64,000 nucleotides of DNA from Myxococcales bacterium (GCA_012798435.1 JAAZNF010000022.1:1-64000), one strand, 5' to 3'; counted from the first letter of the stretch, positions 419 through 30,292 are shown. The notes: generated by a model not told the origin, from the letters alone. Numbers and translations are program-made.

Positions 419-4564
<4,146 letters not shown>

Positions 4565-21863: not shown

Positions 21864-22912
21864 CGCTCGGGTTCCGTGCCGTCGATGCGGACCTCGACGG
21901 GCATGCCGGCGCGCAGCCGCTCCTGCGGGTTGTCGACGCGGGCCTCCACCGCGTACACCAGGCGCTCTCGATCCTCTCGGGTCTGCACGTTGCGCGGGGT
22001 GAACTCGGCCTCGGCCGACACCCGCTGGATCTCGCCGTGGAACACCTCGCCGGGGTAGGCGTCGGCGGTCAGCGACACCGTCCGCCCGGGCACCGCCAGC
22101 CCCACCTGCTCGTTGGGCAGAAAGAAGGTCACCTGCGTCTGGGAGAGGTCGACAATGGTGAGCACCGCCGTCCCCGGCAGGACGGCCTCGCCCACCTCCA
22201 GGTGACGGTGCTGGACGCGGCCGCCGCGCGGCGCCACCAGGCGGCACTCGGCCACCAACACCTCGGCCCGGCGCACGCCGGCGCGCGCCTGTTCCGCGTT
22301 GCTCTCGACCGCCTGGACCTGGGTGCGCACCGCCCGGCTGCTCATCTCCGCGGCCAGGGCCTGGGCCCGCACCGCCTCCTGGTTCGCCCGCACCCCGGCG
22401 ATCTCGTGCTCCAGGCCCAGCACCTGATCCTGCACCCGATCGAGATTGGACACAGACACCGCGCCCGCGGCCTGGAGGGTGCCCAGCCGCGCGGCCTCCT
22501 TGCGGGCGGTGCCGCGTCCGACCTCGAGCGCCTCGAGGCGAGCGCCGGTGGCCTGGATGGCCTGTCGCGCCGCGCGGGCGTTCAGTGAGGCGGCCTCGGC
22601 GTTGACCCGCGCCGCCTCCACCGCGGTCTCGGCCGCCTGGAGCTGCGCCCGAGCCTGTTGCAACAGGCTCTCCGGCTCGGCGCAGTCGAGCTCGACCAGC
22701 ACCTGGCCCGCCTCCACCCGATCGCCTTCCCGGGCATGGATGGCGGTGATGCGGCTGGCCAGGCGCGAGGTGACCCGCACCTCCACGCCCTCGATGGTGC
22801 CGCTTCCTCCCGCCGGGCCGCGACCGGCCGCCCGCTGGCGCGAGAGCTGCCAGGCGAGCAGCGCCCCCAGGCCCACGGACAACAGCAGCAAGAAGACGAT
22901 GACCCGCCTCAT
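21860..22912 (-). CDS. HlyD/YbhG-family membrane-fusion (periplasmic adaptor) protein
   Basis: This protein has 350 residues. The ATG at 22912 overlaps the previous stop (ATGA). An N-terminal anchor (VIVFLLLLSVGLGALLAW) is followed by a biotinyl-lipoyl half-motif (GDRVEAGQVLVELD), a long Ala/Gln/Glu-rich coiled-coil hairpin (about residues 85-215), the second half-motif (LVAPRGGRVQHRHLEVGEAV) and a C-terminal beta-barrel with the NPQERLRAGMPVEVRI stretch. It would link the inner-membrane exporter to an outer-membrane channel. No TolC-like gene is in the window. Confidence 0.93.
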   Translation of the reverse strand: MRRVIVFLLLLSVGLGALLAWQLSRQRAAGRGPAGGSGTIEGVEVRVTSRLASRITAIHAREGDRVEAGQVLVELDCAEPESLLQQARAQLQAAETAVEAARVNAEAASLNARAARQAIQATGARLEALEVGRGTARKEAARLGTLQAAGAVSVSNLDRVQDQVLGLEHEIAGVRANQEAVRAQALAAEMSSRAVRTQVQAVESNAEQARAGVRRAEVLVAECRLVAPRGGRVQHRHLEVGEAVLPGTAVLTIVDLSQTQVTFFLPNEQVGLAVPGRTVSLTADAYPGEVFHGEIQRVSAEAEFTPRNVQTREDRERLVYAVEARVDNPQERLRAGMPVEVRIDGTEPER

Positions 22913-24039
22913 GGATGCTCCTCGCCAGGCACCGGGCCCGCGCCGTCCAACGCCTCGGCCAGCACCTCGATGACGTCGCGCACCTGCCCGCCGGCCTCGC
23001 CCAGCATGCGCTGGCAACCCGGACAGGCGGTGGCGATGCGTTCAGCCCCGGTGGCCTGAAGCTGCTTTAGCCTGCGCCGCGCCGCGGCCGCGGCCGGCCC
23101 GGGCAGTATCCAGGGCACGCCACCCCCGCCGCCGCAGCAGGCGGCGTCATCCCGGGCCCAGGCCGCCTCTTGCAGCGGCTCGGTGAGGCAGAAGGACAAT
23201 ATCCGCCGCGGCGCCTGGTAGCGCTCGCGGTAGCGGCCGGCAAAACAGGGATCGTGATAGGTAAAGCGCCCCGGGATCTTTTGGACCGGCGTCCGTTGCT
23301 CCAGGCGAGGGCCGAGCCACTCGGCCAGGTTCTCCACCCGGGCCGAAAGCGGTTGCCCGACCTCGGCGTAGAGGGTGCGCAACGTCTCCTCGCAGGTGGG
23401 GCACAGGCATAGCACCAGCCGGCAGGCGCCGAGCTGCCGCCGCAGGCGCTCGGCGTGCGCCTCGAAGCCCTTCCGGTCTCCCATCTGCCACAGCGGCGCG
23501 CCGCAGCACAGGTCGTCCCCGGCGAACACGCCGACGAAGTCGATGGAGAGAGCCGAGAACACCCGCCGGGCGGCCGACACCACCGACTCCGCGCGCAGGG
23601 CCTGGCAGCCCGCGAAGAGCACCGCCCGCGCCTCCGCGGGGCGCAGCTCCGCCGGCACGATCCGCTCCAGCCGGGCCCCAAGATCCTCCGCGAAGGGGTT
23701 CCCCTGCTTCCGGAAGCGGGCCAGAAAACCGCACACCAGCGGGTCCTCCAGGTTGCGCGAAAACAGCGCGGCGCGCGCCTCCAGCAGGGCGCCCGGCACG
23801 TCCACCGCGTGCCGGCAATGGGTGCGGCAATGCAGGCAGGAGAGGCAGTGATACACGACGGCGGCGGCCTCGGGAGAGTCCGGGGCGCGGCGGGCACCGA
23901 TGCGCTCCGCCTGGATCATCTTCCACCACGGGGTGACGGCCTCGCGGTGCTCCACCTCGGCCATCGGGCAGGCGAAGCGGCACATCTTGGGGCAGAAGGC
24001 GCACATGGCCAGATCCCGCTTGTGGGAAAGCAGGCTCAC
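22909..24039 (-). CDS. Iron-sulfur protein with two CCG domains (GlcF/GlpC-like)
   Basis: This protein has 376 residues. The GTG at 24039 forms a GTGA overlap with the flavoprotein stop. Two [4Fe-4S] motifs lie near the N terminus: CAFCPKMCRFACP and CLSCLHCRTHCRHAV. Two CCG-type domains follow: FAGCQALRAES with CCGAPLWQMGD and CPTCEE, then YHDPCFAGRYRERYQ with CCGGGGGVPW and CPGCQRM. This is the architecture of electron-transfer subunits such as GlcF, GlpC and the heterodisulfide reductase HdrD part. It should carry electrons from the two upstream flavoproteins toward quinone or another carrier. Confidence 0.9.
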   Translation of the reverse strand: MSLLSHKRDLAMCAFCPKMCRFACPMAEVEHREAVTPWWKMIQAERIGARRAPDSPEAAAVVYHCLSCLHCRTHCRHAVDVPGALLEARAALFSRNLEDPLVCGFLARFRKQGNPFAEDLGARLERIVPAELRPAEARAVLFAGCQALRAESVVSAARRVFSALSIDFVGVFAGDDLCCGAPLWQMGDRKGFEAHAERLRRQLGACRLVLCLCPTCEETLRTLYAEVGQPLSARVENLAEWLGPRLEQRTPVQKIPGRFTYHDPCFAGRYRERYQAPRRILSFCLTEPLQEAAWARDDAACCGGGGGVPWILPGPAAAAARRRLKQLQATGAERIATACPGCQRMLGEAGGQVRDVIEVLAEALDGAGPVPGEEHP

Positions 24040-25229
24040 GCCAGCACCTCCCGTTCCAGCCACGGCAAGGCCTGGGGGTTGAGCAGGCTCCCCGGATCCA
24101 GCTCCCTCTTCACCCGCCGCAAGCGCTCGAACTCCGCAGCGCGCGCCCGCCCCCGCTCTCCGTCGGGATCGAGAAACCGGCGCAGGCGGGCAGCGAGCGA
24201 GGCGGGCTCGCCGCCGAGCACCCGCAGCCGACAGCCGCTGACCTCCGGCCGGTCGAGCATCAGCGCGTCCACCAGCGGCAGGTTGAACTCGGTTATTACG
24301 CGCTCGAGGCGGGACCAACGCACCCCGCCGGCCACTGGCAGATCCTTGGCGACAGCGAGCGGGGCGTCCTCGCCGCTCCGCAGCTCCCGGGCCGTGATGG
24401 ACTTCAGGTGTTCGCGCAGCTCCCGCACGGCTTCCTCCACCAACCCCGCCGTCCCCTCGAAACCAAGCTCCACCCGTGCCCCGCGGCCGTCCACCCAGAT
24501 CAAGGCGCTTCCTTCGGCCGGGGGAAGCGGGCCGAGCGCAGCCCGACGCAACACCTCGGCCGCCTGCACCGGCTGGTTCAGTTGCACCGAGATCCGTTTG
24601 CGCTCGCTCCCTCCTGGCGCAAGGCGTAAGGCCGCCTCGGTGAGCACGCCGAAGGCCCCGCCGGTGCCGAAGAACAACGCCCCCAGATCCGGCCCACAAG
24701 CCGAGCGCGGCGAGGTGATGCTGCGCCAGGCGGTCCCGTCCGGCAACACCGAAGAGATCCCCAGCGCGGGCGACACCGGCAGCGCCAGGACGGGATCGTG
24801 GATCCGCGCCGTCGTGGCGAGCCAGCCGCCCACCGTCCCCGGATCGGACGGCTCGACACCGACCAGACGCAGGCCCGCCTCCTCCGCCGCCGCCCGCGCC
24901 TGCGGTAGGGGGGTGCCGGCGCGGACCCGTAGCAGCAGGGCCTCGGCGTCCAGCGCGAGCACTCCGCGACAAGCGGTCGTGTCGAGGAGAATGCGGCGCG
25001 CGCCGGCCTCGGCCGGCACCATCCGGCCGAGCAGCGAGCGGGCGCCCGCGGACACCAGCGCCACCCCGTCCGCGCGGGCCGCCCGCAGAAGCTCGGAGAT
25101 CTCCTCAGCGGTGGCGCAACCCACCGCGGCGGCGAACCCCGCGCCATCCCCGGCCGCCGCTGGCAGCGCGGGAAGCACGCGCCGAAGCTCCCTCGAGCCT
25201 GGCAATCGGTTCGTCTCGTCCGCGGCCAT
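24036..25229 (-). CDS. FAD-binding oxidase subunit (GlcE-like)
   Basis: This protein has 397 residues. The ATG at 25229 overlaps the upstream stop (ATGA), which settles the start. A PCMH-type FAD domain is visible: ALVSAGARSLLG, VRAGTPLPQARAAAEEAGL, SDPGTVGGWLATTARI and GALFFGTGGAFGVLTEAALR. The C terminus ends RRVKRELDPGSLLNPQALPW, the usual end of this flavoprotein family. It lacks the His-rich active-site motif of its upstream neighbour, as GlcE does compared with GlcD, so it is probably a non-catalytic or electron-relay subunit. Confidence 0.85.
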   Translation of the reverse strand: MAADETNRLPGSRELRRVLPALPAAAGDGAGFAAAVGCATAEEISELLRAARADGVALVSAGARSLLGRMVPAEAGARRILLDTTACRGVLALDAEALLLRVRAGTPLPQARAAAEEAGLRLVGVEPSDPGTVGGWLATTARIHDPVLALPVSPALGISSVLPDGTAWRSITSPRSACGPDLGALFFGTGGAFGVLTEAALRLAPGGSERKRISVQLNQPVQAAEVLRRAALGPLPPAEGSALIWVDGRGARVELGFEGTAGLVEEAVRELREHLKSITARELRSGEDAPLAVAKDLPVAGGVRWSRLERVITEFNLPLVDALMLDRPEVSGCRLRVLGGEPASLAARLRRFLDPDGERGRARAAEFERLRRVKRELDPGSLLNPQALPWLEREVLA

Positions 25230-26779
25230 CAGCGCGCTCCGTCCGCAAAGAGGGTCCCCGGGTTCATGCGCCCGTCGGGATCGAAGGCCCGCTTCAGGGC
25301 CCGGTGTAGCGCCCCGCCCGTCCCGAGCTGCCGGGCCAAAAACGGCGCCTTGAGCCGGCCGATGCCATGGTGGTGGCTCACCGTGGCGGAGGCGGCGAGC
25401 ACCGCCTCCTGCGCCTCGCGCCACATTCTGTCGTAGGCCTCGATCGCGCGCTCGTCGCTGCCGGCCGCCGCGGCCAGGGTGAAGTAGATCGAGCACCCTT
25501 CGCGGTAGGCGTGCGAGAAGTGCGCCATGACGAAACAGCGCCGCCACAGCCGCTCCCGCACCGCCCGGTACAGCGGCAGCACCCGCTCCCAGGTGGTGGC
25601 CACCTCCATGGTGTCCACGAAGGCGCCGGCGGCAAAGAGCGGCGACTGCTTGTACGAGACGGCGTAGCGGTTCTTCCACCAGTGGCGCGCCGGGCCTTCG
25701 CCCAGCTCCTCTCCCCCGGCCGTGACACAGGCCGCATTCAGCGCGCGCGCCGTCTCGCGCGTCTCGCCCTGGCTACCCTCGCACACCGCCACCAGCAGGC
25801 AACCGCCGGGCAGTAGCGTGGTCATCCGGTTGAGCAACGCCGGACGCCCGAGCAGCACACTCAGCGAGGCCTCGCCCAGCCGGCCCAGGGGCTTCGCGGC
25901 GCGACCGAGCAGGTCGCGCAGCCAGGAGCTCGCCTCCCCGTCCGCCTCCGGGCCGGTCTTGGCGATCAGGGTGTCGAACTCGTCGTACAGCCGGAGCACG
26001 GCGGGCCGCAGCCCGGCGCGCAGACACGAGCGCATGGCCGTAACACCCGCCGCAAGATCCGCGAAGCGGAACGCCGCGAACGCCCGGGCGGGCGGGAGCG
26101 GCCGCACCACCAGGCTGGCCGAGAGCAGCACGCACAGCGCGCCCTCCGAGCCCACCAGCAGCGGCAACAGCGAAAAACCGTCCAGGCCGGGTTCGAGCGG
26201 GGCTGTGCTGCGCCGCTCCCCGGCCGCGTCCAGGTACTCCACCGCGCGCACCATGTCCTCGATCTTGCCGTAGCGGCTGGAGCACTGGCCGGCGCTGCGG
26301 GCGGCGATCCAGCCGCCCACGGTCGAGCAATAGATCGAGGACGGAAAGTGCCCCAGGGTGTACCCGCGCCGGTTGAGCTCGCGCTCCAGGTTCTCCCCCA
26401 CCGCGCCGCACTCCACTTGCAGCAAGTGATCGCGCGAATCGAGCTCCAGGATCCGGTCCAGGCGCTTGAGGTCGAGGACCAGGCCGCCCCGCTCGGGCAA
26501 CGCGCCGCCGCACACGCCCGAGCCCGCGCCGAAGGGCACCACCGGCCAGCCCGCCTGGGTGGCGATGCGTACCACCGCCGCCGCCTGCGCGCCGTCCGCG
26601 GGCCAGGCCACCAGGTCGGGAAGACCCTCGAAGCGCCCCGCCCGCCGCCGCAGCAGCGCCCGGGGCCACATGTCCCGCGCCGCGTAGCGATCGGCGTCGG
26701 AGGCCGACACGAACTCCGGCCCCACCACGGCCGAAAGCCGTCGCCGGAGCTCCTCCGTGTCGAGGCGAGGTTCGAGCAT
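25229..26779 (-). CDS. FAD-linked oxidase, alkyl-DHAP synthase-like (GlcD position)
   Basis: This protein has 516 residues. I take the ATG at 26779 (MLEPRLDTEELRRR); the open frame continues to a TTG 36 bases earlier, which has no better ribosome site. The FAD domain reads PVVPFGAGSGVCGGALP and FPSSIYCSTVGGWIAARSAG, followed by YGKIED. The C terminus has SHHHGIGRLKA and FDPDGRMNPGTLF. The STVGGW...YGxIED and HHHGIG signatures are those of alkyldihydroxyacetonephosphate synthase, while gene order (two flavoproteins plus a CCG protein) is that of glycolate/lactate dehydrogenases. The substrate is open: a 2-hydroxy acid, glycerol-phosphate-like compound or ether-lipid precursor. Confidence 0.85.
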   Translation of the reverse strand: MLEPRLDTEELRRRLSAVVGPEFVSASDADRYAARDMWPRALLRRRAGRFEGLPDLVAWPADGAQAAAVVRIATQAGWPVVPFGAGSGVCGGALPERGGLVLDLKRLDRILELDSRDHLLQVECGAVGENLERELNRRGYTLGHFPSSIYCSTVGGWIAARSAGQCSSRYGKIEDMVRAVEYLDAAGERRSTAPLEPGLDGFSLLPLLVGSEGALCVLLSASLVVRPLPPARAFAAFRFADLAAGVTAMRSCLRAGLRPAVLRLYDEFDTLIAKTGPEADGEASSWLRDLLGRAAKPLGRLGEASLSVLLGRPALLNRMTTLLPGGCLLVAVCEGSQGETRETARALNAACVTAGGEELGEGPARHWWKNRYAVSYKQSPLFAAGAFVDTMEVATTWERVLPLYRAVRERLWRRCFVMAHFSHAYREGCSIYFTLAAAAGSDERAIEAYDRMWREAQEAVLAASATVSHHHGIGRLKAPFLARQLGTGGALHRALKRAFDPDGRMNPGTLFADGAR

Positions 26780-26828
26780 GAGCGAACGATAGCCCAGCGC
26801 GCTCGGGGCGGTCAAATGAGAGCGCCGC

Positions 26829-28226
26829 TCACTTCCAGTGACTGGTGATGAACTCCTCGGTCTCGGGCAGCCCGCCCTGGAGGATGAGGTAGCCGTTGTG
26901 GGGCTCGCGCTCGGTGATCTCGTGGGACACGGGGGTGCGCATCATGCGCATCACCTCGGCGTGATCCTGGGTGTGCCCCAGCACCCAGCACAGCTTCATC
27001 AGCGCGGTCTCGGGCAGCATGTTGTCGAGCGGCACGATGCCGATGTCCAAAAGGTCTCGCCCGGTGTCGTAGACGTACATCTGGGCGTAGCCCCAAAGCG
27101 TCTGCACCGCCATGACCACGTGCACGCCCTGCTGGATGGCCCGCTTCAGCGCCGGGTACAGCGGCTTGTTCACATGTCCCAGCCCGGTGCCGGCGATGAC
27201 GATGCCCTTGTAGCCCTTCTCCACCAGCGCGTCCACCAGGTCGGGCTTCATGCCGGGGTAGTAGTACAGGATGGTCACCCGGTCGTCGTACACCGCGTCG
27301 ATGTGGACCTTCCGGCTCTTGTCGCGGGGCAGGTAGTCACGGGTCAGGTAGTCGAAGCGATCCCGGCTCACCATGCACAGGGGGATGTCGCCGACGGTGC
27401 GGAAGGTGCTGCGGTAGGAGCTGTGCATCTTGCGGCAGCGGGTGCCCCGGTGCAGCAGGCCGTAGCGGTCCGAGGTGGGGCCGAACATGCTGATCATGAC
27501 CTCGGCGATGTCGCCGTAGGCCGCGGAGCGCACGGCGTGGATCAGGTTGAGCGCCGCGTCGCTGGAGGGACGGTCCGAGCTGCGCTGGCTCCCCACCAGC
27601 ACGATCGGCACCGGGCTGTGCTGCACCATGAACGACAGGATGGCCGCGGTGTGGCCCATGGTGTCGGTGCCGTGCCCGATGACGATTCCGTCGGCCCCCG
27701 CGGCGATCTCCTCGCCGATGGCCTGCGCCAGCGGGATGTACTGATCCTTCGACATGTTCTCGGAGAACACGCCGAACAGCTTGCGGGTGGTCAGGTTGCA
27801 AATGTCGGCCAGCTCCGGCACCGCGCCGTACAGCTCGCCCGGGGTGAAGGCCGGGATCACCGCGCCGGTGCGGTAGTCCAGCCGCGAGGCGATGGTGCCG
27901 CCGGTGCCGAGCAGGGTGACCTTGGGCAGGCCGGCGTTGAAGGGGAACTCCCGCTCGGGGATCTTGTAGACCGCCTCCTTGTACCCCAGCTCCTGGATGG
28001 CGCGGATGCGCTCCACGTGGACGCCGGTGTTGTAACCGTTGCGCATCTTCACCACCACGTGCAGATCGTCGAAGGTCTCCGAGCGCGGCAGGATCACGCC
28101 CTCGAAGACGCTGCCCGCGTCGTTGGTGAGGCGCACCTCGCTCCACACCCGCACCCCGAAGCGCTCGAGGGCCTGGCGGGCCTGTCCCCGGTATCCCTTG
28201 AGGGGATCCTTGGCTGGCTGGTTCAT
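26829..28226 (-). CDS. gatD: Glu-tRNA(Gln) amidotransferase subunit D (archaeal type)
   Basis: This protein has 465 residues. The ATG at 28226 overlaps the gatE stop (ATGA). An N-terminal beta-barrel of about 95 residues (GVRVWSEVRLTN, DDLHVVVKMRNGYNTGV) precedes an L-asparaginase-type domain. The amidase tetrad is visible as Thr111 (LLGTGGTIAS), Thr187-Asp188 (IGHGTDTM) and Lys266 (RCRKMHSS). In archaea GatD hydrolyses glutamine and feeds ammonia to GatE. The extra N-terminal domain and coupling to gatE distinguish it from a plain asparaginase. Finding it in a bacterial-looking operon is unusual. Confidence 0.92.
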   Translation of the reverse strand: MNQPAKDPLKGYRGQARQALERFGVRVWSEVRLTNDAGSVFEGVILPRSETFDDLHVVVKMRNGYNTGVHVERIRAIQELGYKEAVYKIPEREFPFNAGLPKVTLLGTGGTIASRLDYRTGAVIPAFTPGELYGAVPELADICNLTTRKLFGVFSENMSKDQYIPLAQAIGEEIAAGADGIVIGHGTDTMGHTAAILSFMVQHSPVPIVLVGSQRSSDRPSSDAALNLIHAVRSAAYGDIAEVMISMFGPTSDRYGLLHRGTRCRKMHSSYRSTFRTVGDIPLCMVSRDRFDYLTRDYLPRDKSRKVHIDAVYDDRVTILYYYPGMKPDLVDALVEKGYKGIVIAGTGLGHVNKPLYPALKRAIQQGVHVVMAVQTLWGYAQMYVYDTGRDLLDIGIVPLDNMLPETALMKLCWVLGHTQDHAEVMRMMRTPVSHEITEREPHNGYLILQGGLPETEEFITSHWK

Positions 28227-30208
28227 GGCTTCACCCCTTGTGCGGCGGCGCGTGGCTCGAACGCGCGTACTGCTTCCCACACCTCGCGGCCTGGCACCCG
28301 CCCGCGCAGCCCGGGCATCACCCGGGCCATGGCGCGCCTTGGCCACGCCCCGGGCGCGGCCTTGGCCCTGGACGGCGGAAGGTCGGCCAGGACGCGCCCG
28401 AGCTCCGAGCGCCAGTCGCCGGCCGGCCGGTCCAGGCCGAGATCCGAGAGCGTCTCCTGGAGCGTCCGCTCCGGCCTCTCCGCCAGCGCCCGCGCGATGG
28501 CGTCCTGCGCCTCCCATAGCACGGGCCGCTCGCGCAGGACCGCAAAGAGCTCCACCCAGCGCTCCGGCTCGATCTTGTCGACGGAGATGCCCCGCCGGCG
28601 CAGGGCCTTCCAGCGCTCGCCGAAGAAGCGCCCGGCTCGCAGCACGTCGGCCTCCGCCCGCCGCACCACCAGATCGACCAGCTCGGCCCCGCCGCGGCGG
28701 ATGAGGTAGCGCACCGTCTGGCGCGGCACCCCGGCGGCCTCCCAGCGCGCCTCCCGTTCCCAGGGCGGCGGTGGCAGCGCCACCCGCAGGCGCTCGACCC
28801 GGTCGCGGGTCATGCGCACTGGCGGGTGGTCGGTGTCGGGGTACATGCGATCCGGCCCCGGCAGGATGCGCTCGAAGTCGGTGCTGCCGTCGGGGAAGGG
28901 CTGGCGCGTCTCATTGGGCACGCCGTCCAGGGCGGCCTGGTAGCGAATCCCGATCTCCTGGGCCGCGGTGATGGTGTCGGCCTCGGGGCCCCACACCAGG
29001 ACCAAGGCATCGCCCTCGGCGCAGTGCAGGTGCTTGCGCAACCTGCCCAGCTCCCGGCGCGAGTCGGCGTAGTCCGGCCAGCGCTCGCTGCTCACCAGGA
29101 TGGGTTGCTGGTCGAGGCCGGCGATGACCCGCACCCGGCCGGCGAGCTCGTGGGAGAAGTCGTGGTACGGCTGGGTGGGCCAACACAGGGTCCCGGCGAG
29201 CCCCGGCAGTTTCACCGCCCGCACGCAGAAGCGCCCCTCGCCCAGCTCGAAGCCGGGGCGGCGTTTCTCCTGCTGCACGAAGGCCTCCCAGGCCTCGGCG
29301 CGAAAGTGCGAATAGCCCGACTGAGTCAGCAGCCGCGTCACGTCGCGGTGCTCGAGTTTCAGGTCTTCGGCCTTGGCGAACCCGCGCCCGCGGAGCTCCT
29401 TCTGCAGGCGCAAGAGGTTCACCTGGCGGATGGCCTCACCGTGGACCAGCCGGCGCGCCCAGCCCGCCTTGGGCACACCCTTGATCTCGACCCGGCGTCC
29501 GCCGCGCACCGAGACGTTGACGTCCTGGCGGCTGGCCCCGATGCCCACCCGTACGTGCCGGGTGGTGCGGCACACCCGGCCAATGAGCAAGATGGCCTCG
29601 GCCACCTCGTCCGGGGTGCGCAGGTCCGGCGCGGTGACCGTCTCGATGAGCGGCATGCCCAGCCGGTCGGTGCGCCACACGATGAGGTGGCCGCGGTCCC
29701 GGACCTCGCGGCAGCTGTCCTCCTCCACGCTCACCTGGACGATGCCCAGGGTGCGGCCGGCGAAGGGCAGCTTGCCGTTCACGCCCACGATGGCGGTGCG
29801 CTGGAAGCCGGTGGGGATGGACCCGTCCAGGTACTGCTTGCGCGCCACGTGCACCTCGTCCACGATGTCGCAGCCCAGCATCAGGCACTGCTCCACCGCC
29901 ACGTCCAGCGCCTCGGGGTTCATGAGGAAGGGCGGAGTGTCGTCCATCTCGTAGGTGCACACGTTCGACTTGTGCAAAAGGTAGATGATGTTCTTCTTGG
30001 TCTTGAACTCCATCAAGGCGGTGCCGTCGTACTCGCCGAGCTCGGAGAGCGTGGGCCGCATGTGACGCAGGATCTCGCCGTCGTGTTTCTGGGTGTACAG
30101 CCCGGCCGGGCACTTGCAGAACAGCTTGCGCCGGGTGAGGAGCTGCTGGTGGACTTCCAGGCCGGCCATGAGGCCGACCTCGGCGTAGTCGATGCGTTCG
30201 CTGGCCAT
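28223..30208 (-). CDS. gatE: Glu-tRNA(Gln) amidotransferase subunit E (archaeal type)
   Basis: This protein has 661 residues, near the archaeal length of about 620-640. It starts MASERIDYAEVG and has the GatB/GatE signature GLEVHQQLLTRRKLFCKCP. The catalytic cradle continues (QYLDGSIPTGFQRTAIVG, VSVEEDSC, RLGMPLIETVTAPDLRTP and VRVGIGASRQDVNVSV). About residues 300-400 form the AspRS-like insert found in GatE but not GatB (VKLPGLAGTL, ELAGRVRVIAG). A tail domain ends with a helical YqeY-like region. It phosphorylates Glu-tRNA(Gln) and amidates it with ammonia from GatD. It is the first gene of the long minus-strand operon. Confidence 0.93.
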   Translation of the reverse strand: MASERIDYAEVGLMAGLEVHQQLLTRRKLFCKCPAGLYTQKHDGEILRHMRPTLSELGEYDGTALMEFKTKKNIIYLLHKSNVCTYEMDDTPPFLMNPEALDVAVEQCLMLGCDIVDEVHVARKQYLDGSIPTGFQRTAIVGVNGKLPFAGRTLGIVQVSVEEDSCREVRDRGHLIVWRTDRLGMPLIETVTAPDLRTPDEVAEAILLIGRVCRTTRHVRVGIGASRQDVNVSVRGGRRVEIKGVPKAGWARRLVHGEAIRQVNLLRLQKELRGRGFAKAEDLKLEHRDVTRLLTQSGYSHFRAEAWEAFVQQEKRRPGFELGEGRFCVRAVKLPGLAGTLCWPTQPYHDFSHELAGRVRVIAGLDQQPILVSSERWPDYADSRRELGRLRKHLHCAEGDALVLVWGPEADTITAAQEIGIRYQAALDGVPNETRQPFPDGSTDFERILPGPDRMYPDTDHPPVRMTRDRVERLRVALPPPPWEREARWEAAGVPRQTVRYLIRRGGAELVDLVVRRAEADVLRAGRFFGERWKALRRRGISVDKIEPERWVELFAVLRERPVLWEAQDAIARALAERPERTLQETLSDLGLDRPAGDWRSELGRVLADLPPSRAKAAPGAWPRRAMARVMPGLRGRVPGREVWEAVRAFEPRAAAQGVKP

Positions 30209-30263: not shown

Positions 30264-30292
30264 ATTGTAGCCGCATCGGCCCTCCGGCTCAA
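30264..30292 (-). promoter_or_regulatory. Sigma-70-type promoter for the gatE-gatD operon
   Basis: On the minus strand TTGAGC (30287-30292) and TACAAT (30264-30269) are exactly 17 bp apart. The predicted start near 30257 leaves a leader of about 49 bases before the gatE ATG. It is the only good promoter seen ahead of the ten-gene run. Confidence 0.65.

Follow-up and report, generated by a model that had tools for sequence, protein, structure and literature searches.

The window analyzed here is a 64-kb stretch of DNA (64,000 nucleotides) from a Myxococcales bacterium (GCA_012798435.1, JAAZNF010000022.1:1-64000), and the system in question is a pair of genes on its minus strand, gatE and gatD, predicted to encode a GatDE amidotransferase. 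gatE (28223..30208) specifies a 661-residue protein read as Glu-tRNA(Gln) amidotransferase subunit E, with an AspRS-like insert and a C-terminal tail; gatD (26829..28226) specifies an asparaginase-like glutaminase subunit D of 465 residues, with an N-terminal GatD_N domain, a T111-T187-D188-K266 tetrad and a C-terminal extension (EREPHNGYLILQGGLPETEEFI) characteristic of the clade defined below. Both reading frames are uninterrupted and, as reported in a preliminary description of this DNA, they share an ATGA (28223..28226, minus strand) formed by the gatE stop and the gatD start, which suggests translational coupling. The good sigma-70 promoter of that description comes down to a sigma-70-like site, TTGAGC-17-TACAAT, located on the same strand at 30264..30292, 56 nt upstream of gatE: 9 of its 12 positions match the consensus (no such site arose in 50 shuffles), which is a consensus match and not evidence of use.

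Profile and fold comparisons both identified the pair as GatDE rather than as GatB or plain asparaginases. GatE passed two NCBI equivalog cut-offs (460.7 bits against 456 for PRK04028, 395.8 against 319.55 for TIGR00134), and GatD, in which the GatD_N domain was recognized, scored 491.1 bits against a cut-off of 324 (TIGR02153). By phmmer, residues 3-648 of GatE aligned with Pyrococcus abyssi GatE (1zq1_C, E 7e-91) and residues 22-443 of GatD with P. abyssi GatD (1zq1_A, E 6e-120); among solved structures, both subunits come closest to two archaeal GatDE complexes, 1zq1 and 2d6f, with near end-to-end alignment. When an AlphaFold model of GatE (mean predicted local distance difference test score 79, predicted template modelling score 0.78) was used in a fold search, 1zq1_C came first (E 1.4e-40), followed by 2d6f and then by GatB structures; AspRS structures were retrieved weakly after these, in agreement with the predicted AspRS-like insert. 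GatE thus displays the GatB-like catalytic domain, the AspRS-like insert and the helical tail of its family, and it is closer to GatE than to GatB by profile scores and fold ranking (the trees described below held GatE only). Residues E18, H20, E162, E163, D181, E189, D229, N231, S233 and K243 of GatE are common to the bacterial and archaeal proteins, and the GatD tetrad showed zero substitutions in 76 aligned GatDs (bacterial, plus one archaeal row).

Trees of GatE were built with FastTree and with IQ-TREE (LG+C20 posterior mean site frequency model, quick search), the root not being inferred by the programs. Their archaeal rows were drawn from the GatE of 118 Thermoplasmatota genomes and of P. 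abyssi and Methanothermobacter thermautotrophicus; a search for archaeal GatE via plasmid records returned mostly GatB matches and one partial haloarchaeal match. In both trees, every sampled bacterial GatE fell into one clade (support 95 in IQ-TREE by the Shimodaira–Hasegawa-like approximate likelihood ratio test), united by a short branch (0.086) whose support is just at the threshold. The neighbours of this clade are a minority of Thermoplasmatota GatE (L116, L228-L232, L235 and the long branch L239), and the bacterial and minority Thermoplasmatota sequences together are split from ordinary archaeal GatE with support 99. We refer to this larger clade as type II GatDE. About 22 GatE positions are fixed differently in type II and ordinary archaeal proteins (e.g. 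DGSIPTGFQRT versus DGSNTxGFQRT), and a further mark of type II is an extension at the C terminus of GatD, EREPxNGYLIxQGGxPEVxEFI. In its strict form this motif occurs in 73 of 96 GatDs and in 0 of 18 ordinary archaeal GatDs; it is missing from six bacterial rows, among which are close variants (e.g. QGA in L145). As judged from sequence and predicted fold, the window pair is a genuine GatDE of this distinct clade, with a presumed tRNA-dependent amidotransferase activity.

Within the bacterial clade, the window GatE belongs to a 14-row set (support 99) from Myxococcota, Acidobacteriota, Zixibacteria and Riflebacteria. Three genomes of the window genome's own family (G001, G007 and G008) carry a GatE of a deeply different bacterial subclade, so that gatE probably moved among bacteria; the GatE of a fourth genome, G031, also lies in a bacterial subclade other than that of the window. 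With ordinary archaea as the outgroup, the topology would be best accounted for by a single ancient transfer to bacteria, from a donor resembling Thermoplasmatota, followed by spread. Of the ancient or recent transfer first envisaged, the ancient one is retained, while a recent one is rejected in view of the depth and spread of the clade.

The spread of the bacterial enzyme is considerable. GatE was present in 10 of 58 genomes of the family and phylum of the window genome, and a wider scan, in which a bacterial GatE alignment was the query and each GTDB species was represented by a single genome, gave at least 548 confirmed matches. Domain and phylum names were assigned to the best 80 of these, which comprise metagenome-assembled genomes (MAGs) named Myxococcota/Deltaproteobacteria, Acidobacteriota, Aminicenantes, Planctomycetota, Ignavibacteria, other Bacteroidota/Chlorobiota, Calditrichota, KSB1, Eisenbacteria, Zixibacteria, Latescibacteria, Cloacimonadota, Neomarinimicrobiota and Riflebacteria, plus one Thermoplasmata archaeon. 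The bacterial relatives come from about ten or more phyla, and gatE and gatD are adjacent in most loci. What had looked like an archaeal enzyme turning up as a local oddity in one bacterium belongs instead to an old, widespread bacterial clade.

We then considered the aminoacylation enzymes of the window genome (G000; 5.05 Mb, 129 contigs, 97.3% complete), presence and absence being taken from targeted searches. It encodes a full GlnRS (705 bits), directly after tRNA-Gln(CUG), an AsnRS (612 bits), one bacterial GluRS and a bacterial-type AspRS. The preliminary description had called for searches for gatCAB and glnS, and had offered replacement of GatCAB as one explanation of the locus: the gatB model matched gatE alone (84.8 bits against a cut-off of 314.8), GatA and GatC not being searched for. 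The absence of GatB from a 97%-complete genome agrees with such a replacement, whereas the presence of GlnRS means that such a replacement need not make the cell dependent on GatDE for Gln-tRNA. As for asparagine, AsnA was not found, no AsnB match exceeded the cut-off (best match 52 bits) and the asnS matches included no AsnRS-like (archaeal-type) asparagine synthetase, a 357-residue match among them reading as EpmA; none of these synthetases accounts for the asparagine supply of this genome. Two tRNA-Gln genes only were found. No tRNA-Asn, which in a tRNA-dependent asparagine pathway would be expected to have U1-A72, was among the tRNAs read from the draft, six long tRNA matches falling outside the reading, and this probably reflects an assembly gap. 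A 62-base low-scoring tRNA match (G000:C94:30689-30750; L070) reads like the 3' portion of a tRNA with a CAU anticodon; it is close to the end of a contig and may be what is left of an integration site.

The same question was put to 60 genomes with type II GatDE (59 bacterial ones and one archaeal MAG), cross-tabulated by hand; many are incomplete MAGs, and absences are accordingly soft. GlnRS occurred without GatB in 30 of them, both occurred in 14, GatB without a full GlnRS in 9 (four with GlnRS fragments) and neither in 7. Because half of the sample has GlnRS and no GatB, type II GatDE is not a stand-in for a missing GlnRS, and its being a simple replacement of that enzyme is rejected for the window genome, which has GlnRS, and for most of these genomes. 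In the phylum of the window, GatB was detected in 4 of 10 genomes with GatE versus 38 of 48 without (Fisher p = 0.02, relatedness ignored, the GatB signal of the latter group being weak matches of P0001): GatB is rarer where GatE is present, a difference that we regard as suggestive only.

The genes surrounding gatDE gave an indication of its substrate. The context set consisted of 96 sources (the window and 95 gatDE loci, 1.1 Mb), scanned with a tRNA-Gln/Glu covariance model. Eight credible tRNAs were obtained, six of which are of the Gln/Glu kind and adjoin gatE or gatD: tRNA-Gln(CUG) in L088, L116 and L259, tRNA-Gln(UUG) in L261, tRNA-Glu(CUC) in L115 and a tRNA-Gln-like CUA tRNA in L105. 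The chance of at least six in eight is about 1e-5 at a base rate of 4 Gln/Glu genes in 46 tRNAs, taken from one genome; this figure is to be used as a guide, since the six were among the tRNAs from which the model was built and some of the loci are related to one another. In addition, a GlnRS gene is divergent beside gatE in G024 (L064), six loci have a homologue of glutamine synthetase close to gatDE, and AsnA is found in the vicinity of gatE in G004 and L109. In a Thermoplasmata MAG (G084), gatD is followed by gatE, tRNA-Gln, a glutamine synthetase homologue and an archaeal asparagine synthetase A, in that order. These linked genes support the view that glutamine on tRNA is the business of type II GatDE.

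Two of these loci call for a remark of their own. The L105 tRNA (4188-4263; Holophagaceae MAG, PLUC01000041.1) has a CUA anticodon that would read amber codons, has U1-A72 on a tRNA-Gln-like body and lies 69 bp upstream of gatE; UAG reassignment was considered and rejected, as TAG still ends some neighbouring genes. The G084 MAG (Thermoplasmata archaeon, Hel238.bin54; L262 3218-5252, L263 3549-5264) holds a bacterial-kind GlnRS, 63% identical to that of the window genome, after a tRNA-Gln(CUG) with the archaeal A1-U72 pair, as well as an archaeal-type GluRS-like gene. It has two tRNA-Gln(CUG) genes, one beside gatE and one beside GlnRS (L264 3692-3765, L262 3218-3291).

Taken together, these data lead us to favor, as reasonably probable, a role in which type II GatDE assists GlnRS by amidating Glu-tRNA(Gln), in an auxiliary or clean-up capacity, which is the reading that needs least. 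GatD would hydrolyse glutamine (or asparagine) by means of its Thr-Thr-Asp-Lys tetrad and pass the ammonia to GatE, which, using ATP, would activate the gamma-carboxylate of the glutamate on Glu-tRNA(Gln) to give Gln-tRNA(Gln). GlnRS would supply most of the Gln-tRNA of the cell and GatDE would deal with mischarged Glu-tRNA(Gln), in the position occupied in related bacteria by GatCAB. The foremost candidate substrate is tRNA-Gln(CUG), because it is linked to gatDE in three loci and because some GluRS1 enzymes have been inferred to charge the CUG isoacceptor of tRNA-Gln (PMC3927822).

Several observations weigh against this role. The gatDE genes of the window adjoin no GlnRS gene and no tRNA gene, none being detected there by the tRNA-Gln/Glu covariance model. 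In two genomes of the same family (G005 and G006) these searches detected no GatDE and no GatB, which makes the enzyme dispensable there. The tRNA-Gln of the window genome has the bacterial U1-A72 pair; A1-U72, found in the tRNA-Gln of the archaeal type II loci L116 and L259, and the D-loop are the tRNA features reported to be read by archaeal GatDE (PMC9499178). Finally, the GluRS has an Arg at the position of Thermus thermophilus Arg358, the marker of a discriminating enzyme, and may make little Glu-tRNA(Gln); a non-discriminating GluRS was thus discarded as the obvious source of this substrate. The GlnRS-free setting with a non-discriminating GluRS in which archaeal GatDE operates is therefore not that of the window genome, a difference which, like that of the tRNA pair, concerns the setting and not the protein family. 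The Arg358-type marker is not universal, as it failed in Helicobacter pylori (PMC3927822). In two other genomes, G082 and G092, two full bacterial GluRS genes were found, the pair of G082 having Arg and His at this position. The AspRS of the window genome has a Leu, like T. thermophilus AspRS1, where the Asp/Asn-charging enzymes of Pseudomonas aeruginosa and Mycobacterium tuberculosis have a His, a position that we take to be a marker of discrimination. Since GluRS has Arg and AspRS has Leu, neither mischarged tRNA is obviously plentiful.

A different substrate is nevertheless conceivable: type II GatDE, at least here, may act on Asp-tRNA(Asn), asparagine being made on the tRNA. The window genome shows the combination that goes with this pathway (neither AsnA nor AsnB found, AsnRS and an amidotransferase present), having AsnRS and GlnRS while AsnB, AsnA, an AsnRS-like asparagine synthetase and GatB were not found. 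It thereby resembles Bdellovibrio, in which, as in Thermus, GatCAB makes asparagine on tRNA in the presence of both AsnRS and GlnRS (PMC4206432), with GatDE in the place of GatCAB; moreover, 11 bacterial genomes with GatDE and without GatB had neither AsnA nor AsnB in these searches. Against this, the tRNAs linked to gatDE are Gln or Glu and not Asn, AsnA lies near gatE in the two loci cited above, AsnA or AsnB occurs in many further type II genomes and archaeal GatDE is specific for Glu-tRNA(Gln) according to the literature. The Leu of AspRS, a single-residue marker of the discriminating type, points the same way. We consider this activity unlikely, and the same holds, marginally more so, for its stronger form, in which the enzyme of this lineage would have widened or switched its specificity to Asp-tRNA(Asn) and GatDE, not GatCAB, would be the sole route to asparagine.

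We give little credence to the proposal that a tRNA-Gln encoded next to type II GatDE is its dedicated substrate, giving the cell a second path to glutamine alongside GlnRS. In G084, the D-loop of the gatE-linked tRNA-Gln(CUG) is one base longer than that of the GlnRS-linked one, a change in the region reportedly read by archaeal GatDE, and another three loci have a tRNA-Gln adjoining gatDE, besides the CUA tRNA of L105. By contrast, no tRNA accompanies gatDE in most loci, the window included, and only two tRNA-Gln genes were found in the window genome. It is similarly doubtful that the pair is a vestige, or a relic with no part in translation, that drift has preserved, or that it moonlights as an asparaginase or glutaminase. 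Life without GatDE and GatB in G005 and G006, and the location of gatD and gatE on separate contigs in G001, G007, G008 and G031, relatives in which the operon is split, would suit a relic, whereas the catalytic residues and the type-specific C-terminal extension are strongly conserved over many phyla and gatE stays linked to gatD in most loci, which argues against it.

Lastly, contamination or a chimeric contig, to which the 129-contig state of the draft might lend itself, is very improbable: the genes on either side of gatDE in the window are ordinary and bacterial in style, the G+C content of the locus (70-72%) is that of its surroundings, and independent loci refute it, with relatives in the family and phylum of the window genome as well as in many further phyla, two of them in single, long bacterial chromosome records (CP054675.1 and CP070707.1). 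The contig is thus bacterial. The region downstream of gatD on the same strand (22909-26815) holds a pair of FAD-oxidase-like genes together with one that is iron-sulphur-protein-like, which by eye resemble glycolate oxidase subunits; they are not conserved beside gatDE elsewhere.

According to reviews, GatDE occurs only in archaea, and GlnRS is absent from them (PMC9499178, PMC8007984), and surveys of tRNA-Gln and tRNA-Asn charging in bacteria counted GatCAB alone (PMC3927822, PMC4206432). As far as abstracts and passages show, no bacterial GatDE is reported in the literature mentioning this enzyme. What is new is the pattern and not the gene name, since NCBI automatic annotation will already name such proteins. 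A bacterial GatDE clade changes the charging tallies, as an indirect route was assumed to be lacking in bacteria with GlnRS and without GatCAB. The clade also offers a case in which the coexistence of two glutamine routes in the same cell can be tested, and likely represents a single old inter-domain transfer of a core translation enzyme.

Compared with archaeal GatDE (P. abyssi 1zq1, Methanothermobacter 2d6f), the type II enzyme has the same two subunits, domain order, fold, most active-site residues and GatD tetrad; it differs in forming a separate clade, with its own residues at some 22 GatE positions and a GatD C-terminal extension, and in being found in bacteria, mostly alongside GlnRS. 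With bacterial GatCAB it shares the homologous catalytic domains of GatB and GatE and, likely, the physiological niche. In contrast, GatE has the AspRS-like insert, its partner is the asparaginase-like GatD instead of the amidase-like GatA with GatC, and the gatB model scores the window protein far below its cut-off. Finally, the window genome resembles the bacteria that combine GlnRS, AsnRS and GatCAB without asparagine synthetase (Bdellovibrio, Thermus and Deinococcus) in having its own GlnRS and AsnRS and in that AsnA and AsnB were not found, and differs from them in having GatDE in place of GatCAB and an AspRS whose residue is of the discriminating type.

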